From Treponema sp. (GTDB taxonomy: Bacteria > Spirochaetota > Spirochaetia > Treponematales > Treponemataceae), in NCBI GenBank assembly GCA_016288205.1, contig JAEEYO010000070.1, positions 1 to 64,000 of the forward strand: DNA of 64,000 nucleotides. Reading direction: 5' to 3'. A model generated the notes under the pieces. It was not told the origin of the DNA. It made no database searches and worked only from the letters and a program-made list of their open reading frames with translations. A program made the translations under genes and the position numbers. This document shows positions 6,765-44,253 of this stretch, piece by piece; the stretch's first letter is position 1; each line of letters starts with the position of its first letter.

Positions 6765-7616
6765 TTACTCGGCTTTTTCAAAAATCAGCTCGTAGATTTC
6801 GCGTCCTGCGTCAAGCCCCTTCTGCTCGAATTTCGTCCTCGGTCTCCATTCCTGATGCGGCGCAAATTTCTCATAGCGGTTCACAAGTCCCTCGGTCGCG
6901 CTGAGCTCCTCCAAGGCCTCCTCCGCGTAATCCTGGATGTCCGTCGCAAAATAGATGAATCCTCCGGGAGTCAGTTTCTGTGCAAGAAGATTTGTCCTTG
7001 GCCGTCGCATGAGCCTTCTTTTGTGATGCTTTTTCTTTGGCCAGGGATCCGGGAAAAACACATGGAAAGCCTCCACGGAAGAGTCCGGAACCATGACCTC
7101 AAGCACTTCAAGCGCGTCATGTTCTATTATATAGAGATTTGAAATTGATTTCGCCTTGATTTCACCGAGCAAGCGACCCACGCCGGGCTTATGCACCTCA
7201 AGTCCCAGATAGTTCATATCCGGGTTCTCATGCGCAATCTGTGCCGTGGCATGTCCCATTCCGAAGCCGATTTCAATCGTGACCGGATTCGTGTTTCCGA
7301 AAACATCGGTCAGATTCAGGGTCCTGTGCTCAAACGGAATGCACCACACCTGGTTCAGCTCGGAATAATTCCTTTTTTCACTGTCGGTCATACGTCCCGC
7401 GCGGATTACGAAAGTCCTTATCTCACGCCGGTAACTTTCAGAAATGCTCCCGGGGTCCTCCGAATCCTGCCCGCCGGAACCATCGTCAACTAAAAAACTG
7501 TCAGAAGAGCCAGACTCAGCCGAATCAACATCGCCCGAACTGGCATCAGATACATCAATACTATTATTGTCGTCCACGTCAAATCCTTTTGGAACCGTCC
7601 GGTTAACCTCTGTCAA
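6765..7616 (-). CDS. trmB: tRNA (guanine-N7-)-methyltransferase TrmB with acidic Ser/Asp-rich N-terminal extension
   Basis: [16 protein letters not shown]...[12 protein letters not shown]...[15 protein letters not shown] motifs. Confidence 0.92.
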
Positions 7617-8287
7617 GGCAATTTTTCTTCCGGCATCATGCAGATTACGGTCCCTTTGTTTATTCTATAGCATACACGAAATTTGTCTGCTAGTCCATAG
7701 TCATTCTTAATATCTGAGGATGATTTCCAATTTTCTTTTTTTCCGTCAAAATACATCAGATTTCCGTCAATGTCGTAGATTGCATAAATCTCCTCGGCTC
7801 CGCTCAAAATCTGGGGGTAGTCCGCAAAATGGGATGTCGCAAGCTTTTCTGGATACGCGACCCTGAAGCTGCCCTCCGTCTCCTCACCGGACGCATCCAC
7901 ATAAACGAGCCTGTAGCTTCCCTGCGGCAAGAGACTTCCCGTTGCTGGAACAAAATTCGTATATCCCGCCCAGACAACATTTTTCTGACCGGCAAATTTA
8001 CGCGGAAGATTGCAAGTCCACACAAGGGATGAGGCATCATGCACCGCACGGATTTGTGAGACACGCCTTTCATCCCCGGATGTCTCGGTAAAAACGGAGA
8101 GACGGCATGAGGGAGGATTTTCCTCGTCCTTGAATTCAAAGACCACTGTGGATGAGATGTTCAGGATTCTTGTGTCCGGAGATGAGCATGAAAAAAACAG
8201 CGTAAGAACTCCCGCAAAAAACAGGAGTCCGAAAAAAACTCGTGCGGCTGAGGATAAGGAAGTCCGAAAAGATTCAGCTCTACCCAT
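7613..8287 (-). CDS. Hypothetical lipoprotein
   Basis: Hydrophobic N-terminus followed by [10 protein letters not shown] lipobox-like motif. Confidence 0.55.
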
Positions 8288-8294
8288 GCGTCCC

Positions 8295-9497
8295 CTAGAA
8301 ATTGAATTTCAGGCTGATAACCGTAAGGTCGCTTGAGGTGAACTGATTTACCAGAGACTCGAATTTTACATTGACCTTCTTACATGCATCATCCAGATAA
8401 GAAAGATAGTAGAGTCCCAAATCAGTACCTTCCTGACCGTCGGGCATCTGTCGGTAGAAGTCAATCAGGGATCTTTTGTTCAGGTTGGCGGACATCTTGT
8501 TCTCAATGTTCTCCTTCACTTCCTGGAACTCGTCGTCCTTGTTGTAAAGGGTGATGTTCAGGCTTCCCTGCTTTCCGATTGACGTGGAGCCTCCTCCAAT
8601 CTTCCACTGAAGGAATACGACCTCGTGCTTGCGGATAAGCTCCTGTATGATTTTACCTCGGATCTCAGGATCGTAAATGAGCGTGTCGGCGTTGTCGATT
8701 CCCTGATAAAGGGATTTCGCCTCTTTGCGCATGTTGGTGTTCTCGCTGTTCAGGGCAAGCTCCATGACCATCACGGAAATGTACTCCGCAACCTTGGACT
8801 TGTCCATGTAGTTTGCAAGATACTGGCGGATTATGCTGAGAATCTGAGAAAATCCGTCGGCCTTGAAAAATTTCGTGATTATGTACCAGTTCATCAGGCT
8901 GAGACGGTTCAGGAATTTTTCCGTCATCAGCAGGTAGATATTCTTCTCTTCAGGCGTATAGTCCTTGTTTGACATGATTGATTTCCAGACCGGCTCCAAA
9001 ATTGTCTGTCTGGCGGCCTGAATCACATTGTCTTTCATTGTAAGCGTAGTACGCAGCTGTTTTTCCGGAATCCTGGTCCTTTCGTCAATCAAGTGACCGG
9101 GGTTGGAGCGGTTGTAGCGGCGAACGCAATCACACTGAATCAGGGCTGCGAAAATCTCACGGTCGAACTGCTTGTATAGTATGGAATAAACTATTACCTT
9201 GGACAAATCCATGATTTCCTGTCGTCTTGAGACAAATTCGGACATGGAAATCTCCAGTTTTGAGACATAATCTACAAGGATCATGTTCTGGAGGGACATT
9301 GGAGAAAAGTGATCCATGCTGATGCCGTACTCTTCCTGATTGTCTGCAAGACGGAAACGCAAAAGCTTCTTCTTGTGGCTTATGAAGTGGGAGGCCCCCT
9401 CCTGTGTGAGAACGACTTTCAATGGAAGATCAAGATAAAATTTTTTTCCCGCTGCGCACATAATTTTAAATATCTCCTCATGGATATTACACCACAA
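8295..9497 (-). CDS. Conserved hypothetical protein with GHKL-ATPase-like C-terminal features
   Basis: 400 aa; VMELALNSENTN (N-box-like), GTDLGLYYLSYLDDACKK (G2-like), LTVISLKFNF end strand. Confidence 0.45.
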   Translation of the reverse strand: MWCNIHEEIFKIMCAAGKKFYLDLPLKVVLTQEGASHFISHKKKLLRFRLADNQEEYGISMDHFSPMSLQNMILVDYVSKLEISMSEFVSRRQEIMDLSKVIVYSILYKQFDREIFAALIQCDCVRRYNRSNPGHLIDERTRIPEKQLRTTLTMKDNVIQAARQTILEPVWKSIMSNKDYTPEEKNIYLLMTEKFLNRLSLMNWYIITKFFKADGFSQILSIIRQYLANYMDKSKVAEYISVMVMELALNSENTNMRKEAKSLYQGIDNADTLIYDPEIRGKIIQELIRKHEVVFLQWKIGGGSTSIGKQGSLNITLYNKDDEFQEVKENIENKMSANLNKRSLIDFYRQMPDGQEGTDLGLYYLSYLDDACKKVNVKFESLVNQFTSSDLTVISLKFNF

Positions 9498-38804: not shown

Positions 38805-38971
38805 AAAATGATTTTAATTTCCAGCGACCAAAGATTTCATACACGGAAATATGCCGATTACTGTTTCCTGCGCCGCAAATCTCCCCCCGATTCAAGTTTT
38901 GAGGAAAATGTGCCGAAATACCTACCGATAGGAAAAAAGCGTTTTCTTGCCATTTTTTCCAAGGAGATTGT

Positions 38972-39839
38972 ATGTCAGCCCCCCCCCCTCTTATTTATAC
39001 AGCCGTATAGTAAATTTTTCCGAAGATTCTTCTCTTTCGGACTGATTTTTTTTCTCTCTGCCCTAATCCTTCCTACTTCCATTTTTGCACAGACATCCTC
39101 AAAAAACAATGACGGCGATATAGCAGGAATTCTTAGCCGCGGTGAGCTCAGGGTCGCCATAACAGCGGTGGACCAGCCTCCGTTTTATTTTGTTGACAGG
39201 AGCGGAAACCTTGCCGGCTATGACATCGACATTGCCACAAAGATGGCCGATGAGCTTGGCGTAAAGCTTGTAATTACAAGGGACGCGCCATCATTCAATG
39301 ACCTTGTTACTTTGGTCTCATCGGGAAAAGCAGATCTCGCGGTATCAAAACTCAGCAAGACTCTTACAAGATCCAAGACCGTAAAATTTTCGACCCCGTA
39401 CATGACTTTCAGACAGGGACTTTTGTTCAACCGACTCCAGCTTGCGAAGGTTGCCAGTGAAAGCGAGGTCAAAAACTATGTGAGAAATTACACCGGTACA
39501 ATCGGCGTGATTGCCAACTCGTCCTACGCAAATTATGCGAAAATCAATTTTCCCCATGCCGTCATAAAGGAATACAAGACATGGGAGGAAGCTGTTGAGG
39601 CCCTTGTGAACGGCGAAGTGCTTTCCGTTTACCGCGATGAGCTGGAAATAAAAAAAGTTTTGTCCTCGGTTCCTCAGAGCGCGCTTTCGTTCAAGCCCAT
39701 GTATTTCAAAGACCTTACGGATCCAATTGCCATTGCGGTCAAGAGCGAGAATACCCAGCTTCTTTACTGGGTCAACTTTTTCCTTGAAAGCCAGAAGAAA
39801 ATGACTGCCGAAGAAATTCTTTCGACCTATACATACTAA
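38972..39839 (+). CDS. Amino-acid-type periplasmic solute-binding protein, reading frame interrupted by C10 tract near the start
   Basis: SD AAGGAG then ATG at 38972, C10 at 38979-38988. As given, ATG reads MSAPPPLIYTAV* (TAG 39008-39010). The downstream frame encodes a signal peptide and SBP_bac_3 domain (GELRVAITAVDQPPFYFVDRSGNLAGYDIDIATKMADELGVKL). Confidence 0.75.
38979..38988. repeat. Homopolymeric C10 tract (candidate phase-variation site)
   Basis: Ten consecutive C immediately after SD/ATG; the longest C/G run noticed in the window. Confidence 0.8.
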
Positions 39840-39851
39840 GGAGAGTGTTAG

Positions 39852-42800
39852 ATGTTCGGAAAAATATTGAAAAATCCCTTAACAATTTTTGTTGCGGTTG
39901 CGTTGGGAATTCTGTTGGGCATCTATGAAAAGCAGCTTTCACTGTCACTTGGGGTAATAGGAGACGCTTACCTGAATCTCTTCCAGATGACAGTAATTCC
40001 GATTCTCGTTACATCAATCGTGGCAAGCCTTGCCCAGCTCATAAAGGACAAGAACGCACGCCGCCATATAATCAAAATCATTTTCGTATTTCTGATTATG
40101 CTTACGGTGACATCCGTGTTCGGAACTTTCGCCGGAATAATCGGAAAGCCGGGAGAAAATCTTGGTGAGTCCACTACGGAGGTTTTGGACAGCATAATCA
40201 AAAAATCAACGGACACTTCTCAGGATGAAATGTCGCTCTACGATGCCTCGGAGGATGTCTCGCAGGAAAAATCTTCAATTGCGAATTTCTTCCTCAACAT
40301 AATTCCGTCAAACATTTTCAATTCCTTCAGTTCCGGCTCCATACTGCAGCTTGTTTTTTTCAGTATATTATTTGGAATAGCAATAGGCTTCTTGAAGGAT
40401 GAGTCATCGACAAGGCTCATAAACGGTGCGGTATCGCTGAAAGAGTCATTCCAGAAGCTGATTAACTGGACTATGTACGGTCTGCCCTTTGGCCTCGTTT
40501 TTCTTATGGCAAAACAGATTGCGCAGGTCGGAGTTGAAATACTACTTGCAATGGTGAAATTCATTGTCGTGTTCTACGGTGCAGGACTTGCAGCAATAAT
40601 TATCTGTACGCTGATAATCTGGATAAAGTCGGGAATAAAAAATCCTCTGACCGTTTTCAAGAAAGTCGCAAACCCAATCATAATCTCTTTTGCAACACGG
40701 AACAGTTTCGCAGCCCTTCCCTCATCGGTCGCCGCATTGAAGAGCCTCAACTACGACACCAACACGGTAGACCTTGTGTTCCCGCTTGGACTTACAGTTC
40801 TCAGGTTCGGAAACATAATGTACTTTGCGGTTGCCTCCTGTTTCATTTCTCAGATTTATAACACAACGCTCACGGCTCCTGTAATCGGACTGATTATCGC
40901 CGGCTCCGTTCTTGCAGGAACCGCCACGGCTGGTGCGTCCGGGCTTCTTACCCTGCCGATGATTTCACTGATTCTTGATCCAATCGGTCTTCCTGTTGAA
41001 TCCATACTTGTCGTGTTCATGGCAATTGACTCCCTTATCGACCCGATGAGGACACTCCTTATTGTCTATGTGAACGTCGCGACCACGGCACTTGTTTCGT
41101 CAAAAGATAAAAAGAAAAACCAAGATGACGTGACGCTTTCCGATGTTGATTTCGAATCAATAGATACAGAATCTAATGATGAAATTGAGATAGAACCAGA
41201 GAAGATTGTGGTGGTGGATGTTGAAGACAAGCATGAAATTCCCGAAGAAAGTCTGTCTACCGCAAAGGCCGTTTCTGTACGAGGGGATGCAAATGTTTCC
41301 GCCGTGAATAAAAAATCAGAGCTGGTTATCCCGAACCATACGACCGGCACACAAAGCAAGGATGTCCGCACCCACAAGGATGGAATGAAAGTAAAAATCC
41401 GTGACGCTCTCATTGTGGTAAACACATTGCTCATTGTCGCAACCGCAGCGGTCATAATCTGGGTAAGCTCACACGGAACGAAGGACTCCGTTTATTCGGT
41501 ATCGAACAATCTTGTCACGGAAATCCTCCAGTCCATCGACACAAAGCTTGAGGCATATTATACGCCGGCATCACAGGAAATCCACAGCATAATGCATCAC
41601 TACTGGAACGAGGACACATACCATTTCCAGAGCGACGACGAGATTGCCCTTGACTATTTTATGGAGATTCTTGAAACCCACAAGGAATTCGCTATGGTCT
41701 ACTTCGGGGACACAAAGGGAAACCTTATAATGGGACGGAGAATGCCGGACGGTTCACTCACGCGGCGTTACATAACAAGGGTTGACGACACGGTTTACAC
41801 AAGATACGTGCATGAAAACAGAATCTACAACGCGACTTTCCCGAACACAACGGAGAGCGCGTCAACAGGATACGACCCAAGGACGAGGGGCTGGTACAAA
41901 AAGGCTGTCTCACAGAAACGCACTGTCTGGACAAATGTCTACATATTTGCGACCGACAACATGCCCGGATTCTCATGCGCCTCTCCAATCTATGATGACG
42001 ACGGAAATCTTTTGGGAGTCGCCTGCATAGACATAGGCATAAGAGACCTGTCGCTTTATCTTGGAAAAATCTCCACACCCGCGAACTCTCGCCTTTTCAT
42101 CTACGACCAGGACAACCAGATTATTGCAAAACCGCTTTCGGAAACAGATTCCATAGATACACTTCTGAACGTTCATCCAGAGGCGGACGGCACCAGCACT
42201 TACACGATGAAAAACGTCGACGACAACTCCGACCCCATAATATCCGGCGCATTCAGATTCTGCAAGGGAAAGGAAAACTCGAACGAAATATCGCTGTTCG
42301 AAACTGACGGCAAAAAATATTTCTGCAAGCTGGACTCAATGACAATCGACAACGAGCTTTCTCTGAACGTGGGCATGGTCATTCCCGACGAGGACATAAT
42401 GGGAATTGTCTACAAAAACAACAGGACTGTGATGATTATCTCGATTGTGGTTATTGTCATTGCGATTGTGATTTCCATACTCATCTCCTCCCTCATTTCA
42501 AAACCGATGAAAGTTCTTTCAAACGAGATGGACAACATCAGGAAACTTTCAATTGAGGAGGACAATGTTGACATTGATTCAGGCATAAAGGAAATCGACA
42601 CGATGGTTGACTCATTCCAAGGCATGAAACAGGGACTGATGAACTTCAAGAAATACGTTCCCTCAGATCTTGTGTCCATGCTGATTCGGGACAACCAGAA
42701 CGCTGAGATTGGCGGTAAAAAGCAGTGCCTCACGCTAATGTTCTCGGACATAGAGAATTTTACGGGCATTGCGGAAAGGACAAAACCGGAAGAGCTTATC

Positions 42801-43505
42801 GGGCGGCTCTACGACTATTTCTCTCTCCTCGCCCACACAATCACGGACAACAAGGGAACCATAGACAAGTACATCGGGGACTCAATCATGGCGTTCTGGG
42901 GTGCGCCTGTGGACATTGAGACGAAGACCCATGCTCGTCTTGCCTGTCGTTCCGCTCTTACGTGCCAGATGCAGGGATTCAATCTTTCCAACATTTGGTC
43001 AAGGGAAGGAAAGCCGAGGTTCCGAACAAGATTTGGAATCCATACCGGTGAGGTCGTCGTAGGAAACATGGGCTCTGACGAAAGAATCAACTACACGGTT
43101 CTTGGAGACAGCGTGAATCTCGCGAGCCGGCTTGAGGGACTGAACAAATATTATGGAACAGAAATCATAGCCAGCGGGGCAACGCATGAGCTTGTCAAGG
43201 ATGAATTCGAATTCCGTCTTCTGGATAAAATAACCGTAAAGGGCAAGGTGCTTCCAATCTTCATTTACGAGCTTCTTGCCGAGAAAGGAAAAATTGACCA
43301 GAAGATTTTGAAAACATACGAAGTATATGAGATGGGTCTCAATTATTATTTCGACGGAGACTGGGACAAATGCATCAACTACATGAGCTTCGTGATTGAA
43401 CGAATTGATGATAGTGCCGCAAAAGTAATAAAAGAGCGCGCGGAAAAATTCAAACTGAATCCACCCGCAAACTGGAGCGGAATATATGCCTTTGACAAAA
43501 AATAG
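39852..43505 (+). CDS. Fusion: DAACS (GltP/DctA-like) symporter + dCache sensor + HAMP + class III adenylate/guanylate cyclase
   Basis: 1217 aa uninterrupted ORF. Symporter region (SFATRNSFAALPSSVAAL...IDSLIDPMRTLL); second TM plus dCache (YDPRTRGWYKKAVSQKRTVWTNVY); TM + HAMP; cyclase LTLMFSDIENFTGIAERTKPEEL...GTIDKYIGDSIMAFWGAP...YTVLGDSVNLASRLEGLNK. SD TAAGGAGAG upstream. Confidence 0.93.
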   Translation: MFGKILKNPLTIFVAVALGILLGIYEKQLSLSLGVIGDAYLNLFQMTVIPILVTSIVASLAQLIKDKNARRHIIKIIFVFLIMLTVTSVFGTFAGIIGKPGENLGESTTEVLDSIIKKSTDTSQDEMSLYDASEDVSQEKSSIANFFLNIIPSNIFNSFSSGSILQLVFFSILFGIAIGFLKDESSTRLINGAVSLKESFQKLINWTMYGLPFGLVFLMAKQIAQVGVEILLAMVKFIVVFYGAGLAAIIICTLIIWIKSGIKNPLTVFKKVANPIIISFATRNSFAALPSSVAALKSLNYDTNTVDLVFPLGLTVLRFGNIMYFAVASCFISQIYNTTLTAPVIGLIIAGSVLAGTATAGASGLLTLPMISLILDPIGLPVESILVVFMAIDSLIDPMRTLLIVYVNVATTALVSSKDKKKNQDDVTLSDVDFESIDTESNDEIEIEPEKIVVVDVEDKHEIPEESLSTAKAVSVRGDANVSAVNKKSELVIPNHTTGTQSKDVRTHKDGMKVKIRDALIVVNTLLIVATAAVIIWVSSHGTKDSVYSVSNNLVTEILQSIDTKLEAYYTPASQEIHSIMHHYWNEDTYHFQSDDEIALDYFMEILETHKEFAMVYFGDTKGNLIMGRRMPDGSLTRRYITRVDDTVYTRYVHENRIYNATFPNTTESASTGYDPRTRGWYKKAVSQKRTVWTNVYIFATDNMPGFSCASPIYDDDGNLLGVACIDIGIRDLSLYLGKISTPANSRLFIYDQDNQIIAKPLSETDSIDTLLNVHPEADGTSTYTMKNVDDNSDPIISGAFRFCKGKENSNEISLFETDGKKYFCKLDSMTIDNELSLNVGMVIPDEDIMGIVYKNNRTVMIISIVVIVIAIVISILISSLISKPMKVLSNEMDNIRKLSIEEDNVDIDSGIKEIDTMVDSFQGMKQGLMNFKKYVPSDLVSMLIRDNQNAEIGGKKQCLTLMFSDIENFTGIAERTKPEELIGRLYDYFSLLAHTITDNKGTIDKYIGDSIMAFWGAPVDIETKTHARLACRSALTCQMQGFNLSNIWSREGKPRFRTRFGIHTGEVVVGNMGSDERINYTVLGDSVNLASRLEGLNKYYGTEIIASGATHELVKDEFEFRLLDKITVKGKVLPIFIYELLAEKGKIDQKILKTYEVYEMGLNYYFDGDWDKCINYMSFVIERIDDSAAKVIKERAEKFKLNPPANWSGIYAFDKK

Positions 43506-44253
43506 ACCTGCGATCGGCATAGTTGGCGGTGTTGGTCCCTATGCCGGTCTTGATTTGGAAAAGAAAGTCTTTGACAGTGTGGATGCACATTGCGACCAGG
43601 ATTATCCTGACGTGATGATGATTTCCGCACCCGCATTGATTTCCGACCGCTCATATTACATAATGCACCCGGAGACCGACAACCCCTGCACGGGAATTGA
43701 ATATGTGATTCAGAAACTCGCCGACGCCGGTGCAACACACATAGCGATTCCCTGCAACACGGCACATTCACCAATCATCATGAATCAGGTCCGCAAGTTC
43801 ATAGAGATAAACGGAATAGATGTCACTTTGCTGAACATTGTCGAAGAGACTTGGAAATGGGTGAAGGAAAAATGTTCGAGCAGGGACATTGTTCTGTATG
43901 CAACTAAGGGAACATACTGGTCTGGTGTGTACCGAAAATTCTTTGACAGCGACGGAACGACCAGAATTGTGGAACCGGACGATGAAGACAAGAGCTTGAT
44001 TTGGGATGCAATCTACAGCCGTGAATTTGGAATAAAGGCTTTCTCGAACCCGGTGAAGGATCAGGCCCTTCAAAACTTTATGACCGTTACAGAAAAAATG
44101 ATTTCACGCGGATACGACACTTTCATAATGGGGTGCACTGAAATTCCCCTTGCGATGGGACGGTTCAAACTTCCCATAACACTCATAGACCCCGCCAAGA
44201 TTCTTGCCCGCGCCCTTGTGAAAGCCGTCTGCCCTGAAAGACTGAAGGAATAA
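43486..44253 (+). CDS. Aspartate/glutamate racemase family protein
   Basis: IGIVGGVGPYAGLDLEKKV, HIAIPCNTAHSPI, TFIMGCTEIPLAMG; overlaps the end of the cyclase fusion by 20 nt. Confidence 0.92.
   Translation: MPLTKNRPAIGIVGGVGPYAGLDLEKKVFDSVDAHCDQDYPDVMMISAPALISDRSYYIMHPETDNPCTGIEYVIQKLADAGATHIAIPCNTAHSPIIMNQVRKFIEINGIDVTLLNIVEETWKWVKEKCSSRDIVLYATKGTYWSGVYRKFFDSDGTTRIVEPDDEDKSLIWDAIYSREFGIKAFSNPVKDQALQNFMTVTEKMISRGYDTFIMGCTEIPLAMGRFKLPITLIDPAKILARALVKAVCPERLKE

Follow-up and report, generated by a model that had tools for sequence, protein, structure and literature searches.

A gene whose product combines a DAACS-family transporter, an amino-acid sensor and a class III nucleotide cyclase in one chain was identified in 64,000 nt of DNA from Treponema sp. 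(GenBank assembly GCA_016288205.1, contig JAEEYO010000070.1, forward strand positions 1–64,000; this whole stretch is hereafter the window). The fusion is real, conserved and functionally constrained, and its gene lies between a gene for a family 3 solute-binding protein (SBP3) and a gene for an amino acid racemase. With a rough probability of 0.55, the arrangement would constitute an operon for the uptake and sensing of acidic amino acids, in which a DAACS transporter that depends on a solute-binding protein (SBP), and is probably Na+-independent, is fused to an amino-acid-gated adenylate cyclase. The first-pass annotation of the window, made from the sequence alone, knew of no characterised fusion of this kind, and a search of open-access papers turned up neither a DAACS–cyclase fusion nor an SBP-dependent DAACS transporter. 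Transporters joined to signalling enzymes are already known in kind, from SLC5 kinases and P4-ATPase cyclases; the SBP-linked DAACS system around the fusion looks new, and neither such hard-wiring to a signal nor a capture protein was found described for DAACS proteins in that literature.

A conserved fusion of transporter, sensor and cyclase

The open reading frame (ORF) runs without interruption from 39852 to 43505 on the + strand and encodes 1217 amino acids, as first annotated. From the N- to the C-terminus, the protein consists of a DAACS/SDF domain, a variable acidic linker, a transmembrane (TM) segment, a dCache domain, a second TM segment, a weak HAMP domain and a class III cyclase. 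Pfam matches were obtained for SDF (PF00375; aa 11–416, E 2.2e-72, profile positions 4–385 of 387), dCache_1 (aa 661–786, E 4.2e-16) and Guanylate_cyc (aa 957–1132, E 6.2e-24), with no SLC5 or STAC domain among them, and hydropathy places hydrophobic segments at approximately 523–535 and 860–881 on either side of the dCache domain. The architecture originally described is thus confirmed, apart from the HAMP domain, which falls below significance in the window protein; weak matches in 6 of 19 orthologues (best E 0.012) make its presence likely. An AlphaFold model of the full chain, built for the L039 orthologue (1196 aa), has a mean predicted local distance difference test score (pLDDT) of 51.6 and is well ordered only in the dCache domain.

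A search of spirochaetes for the same architecture, which the first-pass annotation had proposed, identified 18 further full-length intact fusions as well as unfused relatives. Together with the window copy, these form a comparison set of 19 open fusions from metagenome-assembled genomes (MAGs) of Treponema/Spirochaetaceae, all of which yield a Pfam SDF match. The 18 copies share 62–94% identity with the window protein and come from separate assemblies, and their open frames rule out a missed stop codon or frameshift in the linker. Of 275 genomes searched from the same family, about 25 carry the fusion. Among GTDB species genomes, 26 fusion loci were found; these genomes are MAGs of Treponema or other spirochaetes, and many come from the ruminant rumen.

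Mean identity between the window protein and the other fusions is 77% in the SDF domain and 83% in the cyclase, versus 13% in the linker. The ratio of nonsynonymous to synonymous substitution rates (dN/dS), computed separately for the three parts, is 0.04–0.07 for the SDF domain, 0.02–0.06 for the cyclase and 0.2–0.5 for the linker. The linker differs in length among the fusions and keeps the reading frame in all of them, which, with its dN/dS, indicates that it is translated but loosely constrained.

A likely pre-fusion state is found in a member of the same family that belongs to another genus (L031), in which an SDF gene (424 aa) and a dCache–cyclase gene (702 aa) overlap by 4 nt and are followed by the racemase gene. 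Separate genes in relatives had been regarded beforehand as a possible sign against the fusion; in this one same-family case, where the genes are adjacent and overlapping, they do not refute it. The start Met of the L031 cyclase aligns with Met512 of the window protein. An internal start at Met512, preceded in the window by an AAGG-like sequence and producing a free cyclase, was considered and rejected: the equivalent codon is ATG in 7 of the 19 fusions and GTC, TTC, ATA or ATC in the other 12, so that such a start is not maintained.

Predicted sites of sensor, cyclase and transporter

All six positions of the PctA amino-acid motif (Y121, R126, W128, Y129, Y144 and D173 in PctA; positions from PMC10104139, with their numbering in the construct by our own count) are present in the dCache domain as Y674, R679, W681, Y682, Y697 and D727. 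The same motif was seen by eye in the cyclase proteins of the relatives L073 and L074, and the AlphaFold2 (AF2) model of the domain matches those of the amino-acid chemoreceptors PctC, Mlp24 and CtaA.

In the cyclase, alignment to Pseudomonas aeruginosa CyaB (3r5g) and Spirulina CyaC (1wc1) assigns the metal-binding Asp966 and Asp1010, Lys1006 (DKYIGD), Thr1082 (YTVLGD), Asn1089 and Arg1093. The first-pass annotation had correctly named both metal aspartates, the lysine, and the Asn and Arg of VNLASRLE, and the alignment agrees with its reading: the residues needed for adenylate cyclase catalysis are all present. It had misassigned the Asp of VLGDSVN (Asp1086) as a specificity residue; this candidate is rejected, its counterpart in CyaB being Arg, and the purine-specificity partner of the lysine is Thr1082 (CyaB YTIIGREVN). 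With Lys1006 and Thr1082 as its specificity pair, the cyclase is of class IIIb and most probably ATP-specific. Signalling by cyclic AMP (cAMP) is well represented in the genome, as indicated by seven cyclic nucleotide monophosphate (cNMP)-binding domains and approximately 20 sites with similarity to the fusion, which are mainly cyclase-like. Two other genomes that carry the fusion also contain a short second match to its cyclase end (G199:C336:11211-12143 and G183:C120:1154-2122; 76–79% identity, ORFs of 316–324 aa), representing either contig fragments or free cyclases.

The SDF domain was compared with GltPh, in which the roles of the residues are established. R276, D390, D394, R397 and T398 of GltPh are kept as R283, D393, D397, R400 and T401, and R283, D397 and R400 are invariant in 23 SDF domains. 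Residues of the Na+ sites are replaced, namely N310L (L317), D312F (F319), N401I (I404) and D405N (N408); further changes are M311R and T314N and, in a weaker ungapped alignment of TM3, Y89F, T92M and S93L. The sequence (L/G)R(F/Y)GN occurs at TM7 in all members of this spirochaete clade, including the unfused ones, and nearly all other spirochaete SDF proteins found by profile carry NMDGT or a close variant. Proteobacterial SBP-linked SDF proteins likewise lack NMDGT, with different replacements (SLLRVGP, TLCRVAT). The clade is split from canonical DAACS proteins in the tree with support of 100/100, and scores in a sample of 395 genomes drop from E 1e-180 for the clade to 1e-57 with nothing between. 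In other transporter families (CaiT, ApcT), Na+ independence is known to arise through a positive residue that takes the place of Na+. Because the Na+-site residues are replaced, Na+ symport by the SDF half is doubtful, and transport is predicted to be Na+-independent and is probably proton-driven; of the "symporter" originally annotated, the DAACS identity stands and the Na+ symport is in doubt.

Operon partners and unfused relatives

In each of the 23 loci with enough contig on that side, the SBP3 gene immediately precedes the fusion, and the racemase gene directly follows it in 19 of 20 checkable loci, the exception (L051) having <1 kb of downstream sequence. Translation of the SBP3 gene probably begins at the signal peptide, downstream of 38808 (Table 1). 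The racemase scores above the TIGR00035 cut-off and contains both catalytic Cys residues (90 and 217); its identification as the cysteate racemase CuyB is rejected for now, at 143 bits versus a cut-off of 190. Given the amino-acid motif of the dCache domain, the Asp/Glu-type racemase and the amino-acid SBP, an acidic amino acid is a likelier ligand than a dicarboxylate. The transceptor first suggested, converting binding or transport of either type of compound into cAMP, thus retains its logic of transporter, sensor and cAMP, and its dicarboxylate option becomes less likely.

Table 1. Features of the fusion gene and its operon, by position in the window
Feature	Position	Strand	Basis
SBP_bac_3 periplasmic amino-acid-binding protein gene, first in operon	38808..39839	+	Pfam SBP_bac_3, E 2.3e-23
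Ribosome-binding site AAGGAG of fusion gene	39838..39843	+	Read from sequence; overlaps SBP stop codon
DAACS/SDF transporter domain (aa 1–424)	39852..41123	+	Pfam SDF; PDB matches to aspartate/glutamate transporters; dN/dS 0.04–0.07
TM7 motif PLGLTVLRFGN (aa 311–321), replacing Na+-binding NMDGT	40782..40814	+	GltPh alignment
Acidic hypervariable cytoplasmic linker (aa 425–511)	41124..41384	+	13% mean identity; in frame; dN/dS 0.2–0.5
Met512 codon, counterpart of unfused L031 cyclase start	41385..41387	+	Alignment to L031 start Met
Sensor-half TM helix 1	41385..41471	+	Hydropathy
dCache extracytoplasmic sensor	41472..42416	+	Pfam; PctA alignment; AF2 model
TM helix 2 and HAMP-like linker	42429..42626	+	Hydropathy; sub-threshold HAMP in 6/19 orthologues
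Class IIIb adenylate cyclase catalytic domain (predicted)	42720..43247	+	Pfam Guanylate_cyc; CyaB/CyaC alignment
Helical C-terminal tail, ~77 aa, no assigned domain	43272..43502	+	0.69 mean identity, window vs other fusions; model helices
Asp/Glu-type amino acid racemase gene	43486..44253	+	Pfam Asp_Glu_race; 20-nt overlap with fusion gene end

Linkage of an SBP gene to an SDF gene was also found in G015, G297, G307 and G491, and, in a search outside the spirochaetes that covered plasmid records, on three proteobacterial plasmids. G015 has only SBP3 and SDF genes, with no dCache cyclase beside them; G307, from a different part of the phylum, has the genes for SBP3, SDF, dCache–cyclase and racemase in this order and unfused; and the SDF and cyclase genes of L073 are fully separate. 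The three plasmids (from Gemmobacter, Cupriavidus and Paraburkholderia) carry operons of SBP3, SDF, racemase and a second SDF without a cyclase. Because these operons occur without it, SBP–SDF–racemase is a wider system, and in the genomes and plasmids searched the cyclase seems to have been added to it in spirochaetes.

In the distant spirochaete G491, the locus L074 (2772-6479, - strand, with 7295-8635, - strand) contains a 1235-aa fusion of a degenerate SDF with dCache and cyclase, which adjoins an intact SDF gene, an SBP3 gene and a racemase gene. The fused SDF lacks the TR and DPMRT motifs, both of which are kept by the neighbouring SDF (as DPMRS for the latter). L074 is probably a second, independent fusion, a point that the tree cannot decide owing to the long branch (6.1) of this SDF. 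Two fusions are likelier than a single ancient one shared with the window, given the extreme divergence of the L074 SDF and the presence of unfused operons in other lineages. L031, L073 and L074 show that this SDF type has been paired repeatedly with this cyclase type.

Three further observations concern unfused operons. The SBP3 gene upstream of an unfused SDF gene in G024 (L076:10545-11300, - strand) has one in-frame stop, reflecting assembly error or decay. The Cupriavidus (L140:3706-8390) and Paraburkholderia (L142:3761-8328) operons, in which the second SDF is divergent, are located, by eye, among type VI secretion-like genes, with ClpV-, VgrG-, PAAR- and TssK-like neighbours. On the Gemmobacter plasmid (L141:3082-7318), which has no cyclase, the second SDF is degenerate, and a heteromeric SDF pair is possible.

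Proposed function and comparison with known systems

We infer a substrate, a hand-off from the SBP, a coupling ion and a coupling between transporter and cAMP as follows. Aspartate, glutamate or an analogue such as cysteate, in the L and/or D form, would be captured in the periplasm by SBP3 and handed over to the DAACS half, which, lacking the usual Na+ sites, would probably use protons to drive import, and the racemase would interconvert the enantiomers inside the cell. The dCache domain would bind the amino acid in the periplasm and, via TM helix 2 and HAMP, set the class IIIb cyclase dimer and thereby cAMP production, with the transporter half acting as a built-in co-regulator, as DctA does for DcuS. 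DAACS proteins are trimers and class III cyclases are dimers, which the long flexible linker may reconcile. A more general reading, held tentatively and at less than even odds, is that a DAACS clade without Na+ sites works with a family 3 SBP and a racemase in at least two phyla and has been wired in spirochaetes, probably on two occasions, to an adenylate cyclase gated by amino acids; one polypeptide would thereby report the capture, transport and occupancy of an acidic amino acid as cAMP.

Several points weigh against the proposed mechanism. Co-regulation of DcuS by DctA is independent of transport (PMC8307970), and histidine left the kinase activity of CbrA unchanged (PMC7096432); therefore, flux may not be coupled to cAMP. 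Two residues in contact with the substrate in GltPh, T314 and N401, are changed, and the predicted ATP specificity of the cyclase is read from two residues. The AlphaFold model of the SDF half by itself has a mean pLDDT of 44, which is unusable for structural claims, and hence none is made for the transporter half.

The strongest alternative, although unlikely, is that the SDF half only anchors or co-localises its partner: the dCache domain alone would sense and drive cAMP, the SDF half would transport independently, and the fusion would fix the stoichiometry of a pre-existing complex. SDF-less cyclase-domain proteins are indeed common in these genomes, transport and kinase activities are separable in CbrA (PMC7096432), and a hypervariable, probably disordered linker speaks against rigid allostery. 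However, this SDF clade is paired with a dCache cyclase again in distant spirochaetes, where a second fusion probably evolved, and retention of the degenerate fused SDF of L074 beside an intact one suggests a non-transport role. It is improbable that the SDF half has given up transport and serves as a receptor reporting substrate occupancy to the cyclase, in the manner of transporter-derived sensors such as Ssy1 or UhpC. Such a role would agree with the lost Na+-site residues and with L074, whose fused SDF has lost its substrate motifs next to an intact second SDF, but the Na+-site motif is also lost in unfused SBP-linked SDF proteins of spirochaetes and Proteobacteria, which have no signalling domain and presumably transport; moreover, the operon of the window clade contains no transporter other than the SDF, which keeps the equivalents of D394, R397 and T398 and has a dN/dS of approximately 0.05. 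Equally low odds are given to SBP3 serving the dCache domain, as LuxP serves LuxQ, or an ABC permease encoded elsewhere, rather than the transporter. ABC importers are the usual partners of family 3 SBPs, and sensor domains can receive ligand from binding proteins, whereas the SBP3–SDF pairs of G015 and the three proteobacterial loci have no adjacent dCache cyclase, and no ABC permease gene was seen next to these pairs. A functionally meaningless read-through fusion or assembly artefact, compatible with the unfused L031 and L073, is very improbable in view of the 18 additional intact copies down to 62% identity, the low dN/dS, the 12 of 19 fusions that have lost the internal start codon and the second fusion elsewhere.

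How, or indeed whether, transporters inform sensors has long been asked (DctA–DcuS, CbrA, yeast transceptors) and is hard to address with separate partners. The fusion provides a transporter, an amino-acid sensor and an easily read enzyme in one chain, with natural controls in the unfused genes (L031, L073), the fused degenerate transporter (L074) and the cyclase-less transporters of Proteobacteria. By analogy, the closest functional model for the proposed sensing role is DctA–DcuS of E. coli, which also pairs a DAACS transporter with an extracytoplasmic Cache/PAS-fold sensor and a cytoplasmic output, and in which the transporter is a structural co-regulator that sets the responsive state of the Cache-type sensor (PMC8307970). 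There, the partners are separate proteins in contact via helix 8b of DctA, the output is a histidine kinase and the ligands are C4-dicarboxylates; the fusion is one chain with a cyclase output and an amino-acid dCache motif, and no helix 8b was identified in it.

Other known systems share parts of this design. The SLC5–STAC–histidine kinases (CbrA, CrbS) also have a secondary transporter N-terminal to a signalling enzyme, and in CbrA the Na+-site residues typical of its transporter family are missing and protons probably drive transport (PMC7096432). These kinases differ in transporter family, STAC linker and kinase output, and have neither an extracytoplasmic dCache domain nor an SBP and racemase in the operon. 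In the apicomplexan P4-ATPase–guanylyl cyclases PfGCalpha and TgGC, a transporter-type domain is N-terminal to a class III nucleotide cyclase, and activity of the ATPase domain is reported to be essential for cyclic GMP (cGMP) synthesis, according to the title of PMC7858053. These proteins are eukaryotic, with a primary-active flippase-type domain and paired cyclase domains that produce cGMP. The C-terminal half of the fusion resembles dCache_1AA receptors (PctA, Mlp24) and CyaB/CyaC in motif, fold and catalytic residues; the receptors differ in having methyl-accepting or other outputs, and to our knowledge no characterised dCache_1AA receptor is fused to a transporter.

For the SBP linkage, the comparison is with TAXI-GltS of Bordetella pertussis (BP0403), in which an SBP gene accompanies that of an elevator-type glutamate transporter; the SBP is proposed to serve this transporter, which is of a type previously not known to use one (PMC12344293). 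Before that report in 2025, TRAP and TTT were the only secondary transport systems known to depend on an SBP (PMC12344293). TAXI-GltS combines a TAXI-type SBP with an ESS/GltS transporter, whereas here a family 3 SBP is linked to a DAACS transporter, together with a racemase and a cyclase. Its authors noted that further classes would test whether the elevator mechanism permits a binding protein (PMC12344293), and such a test would be possible with the SBP3-linked DAACS clade, whose family includes the best-studied elevator.

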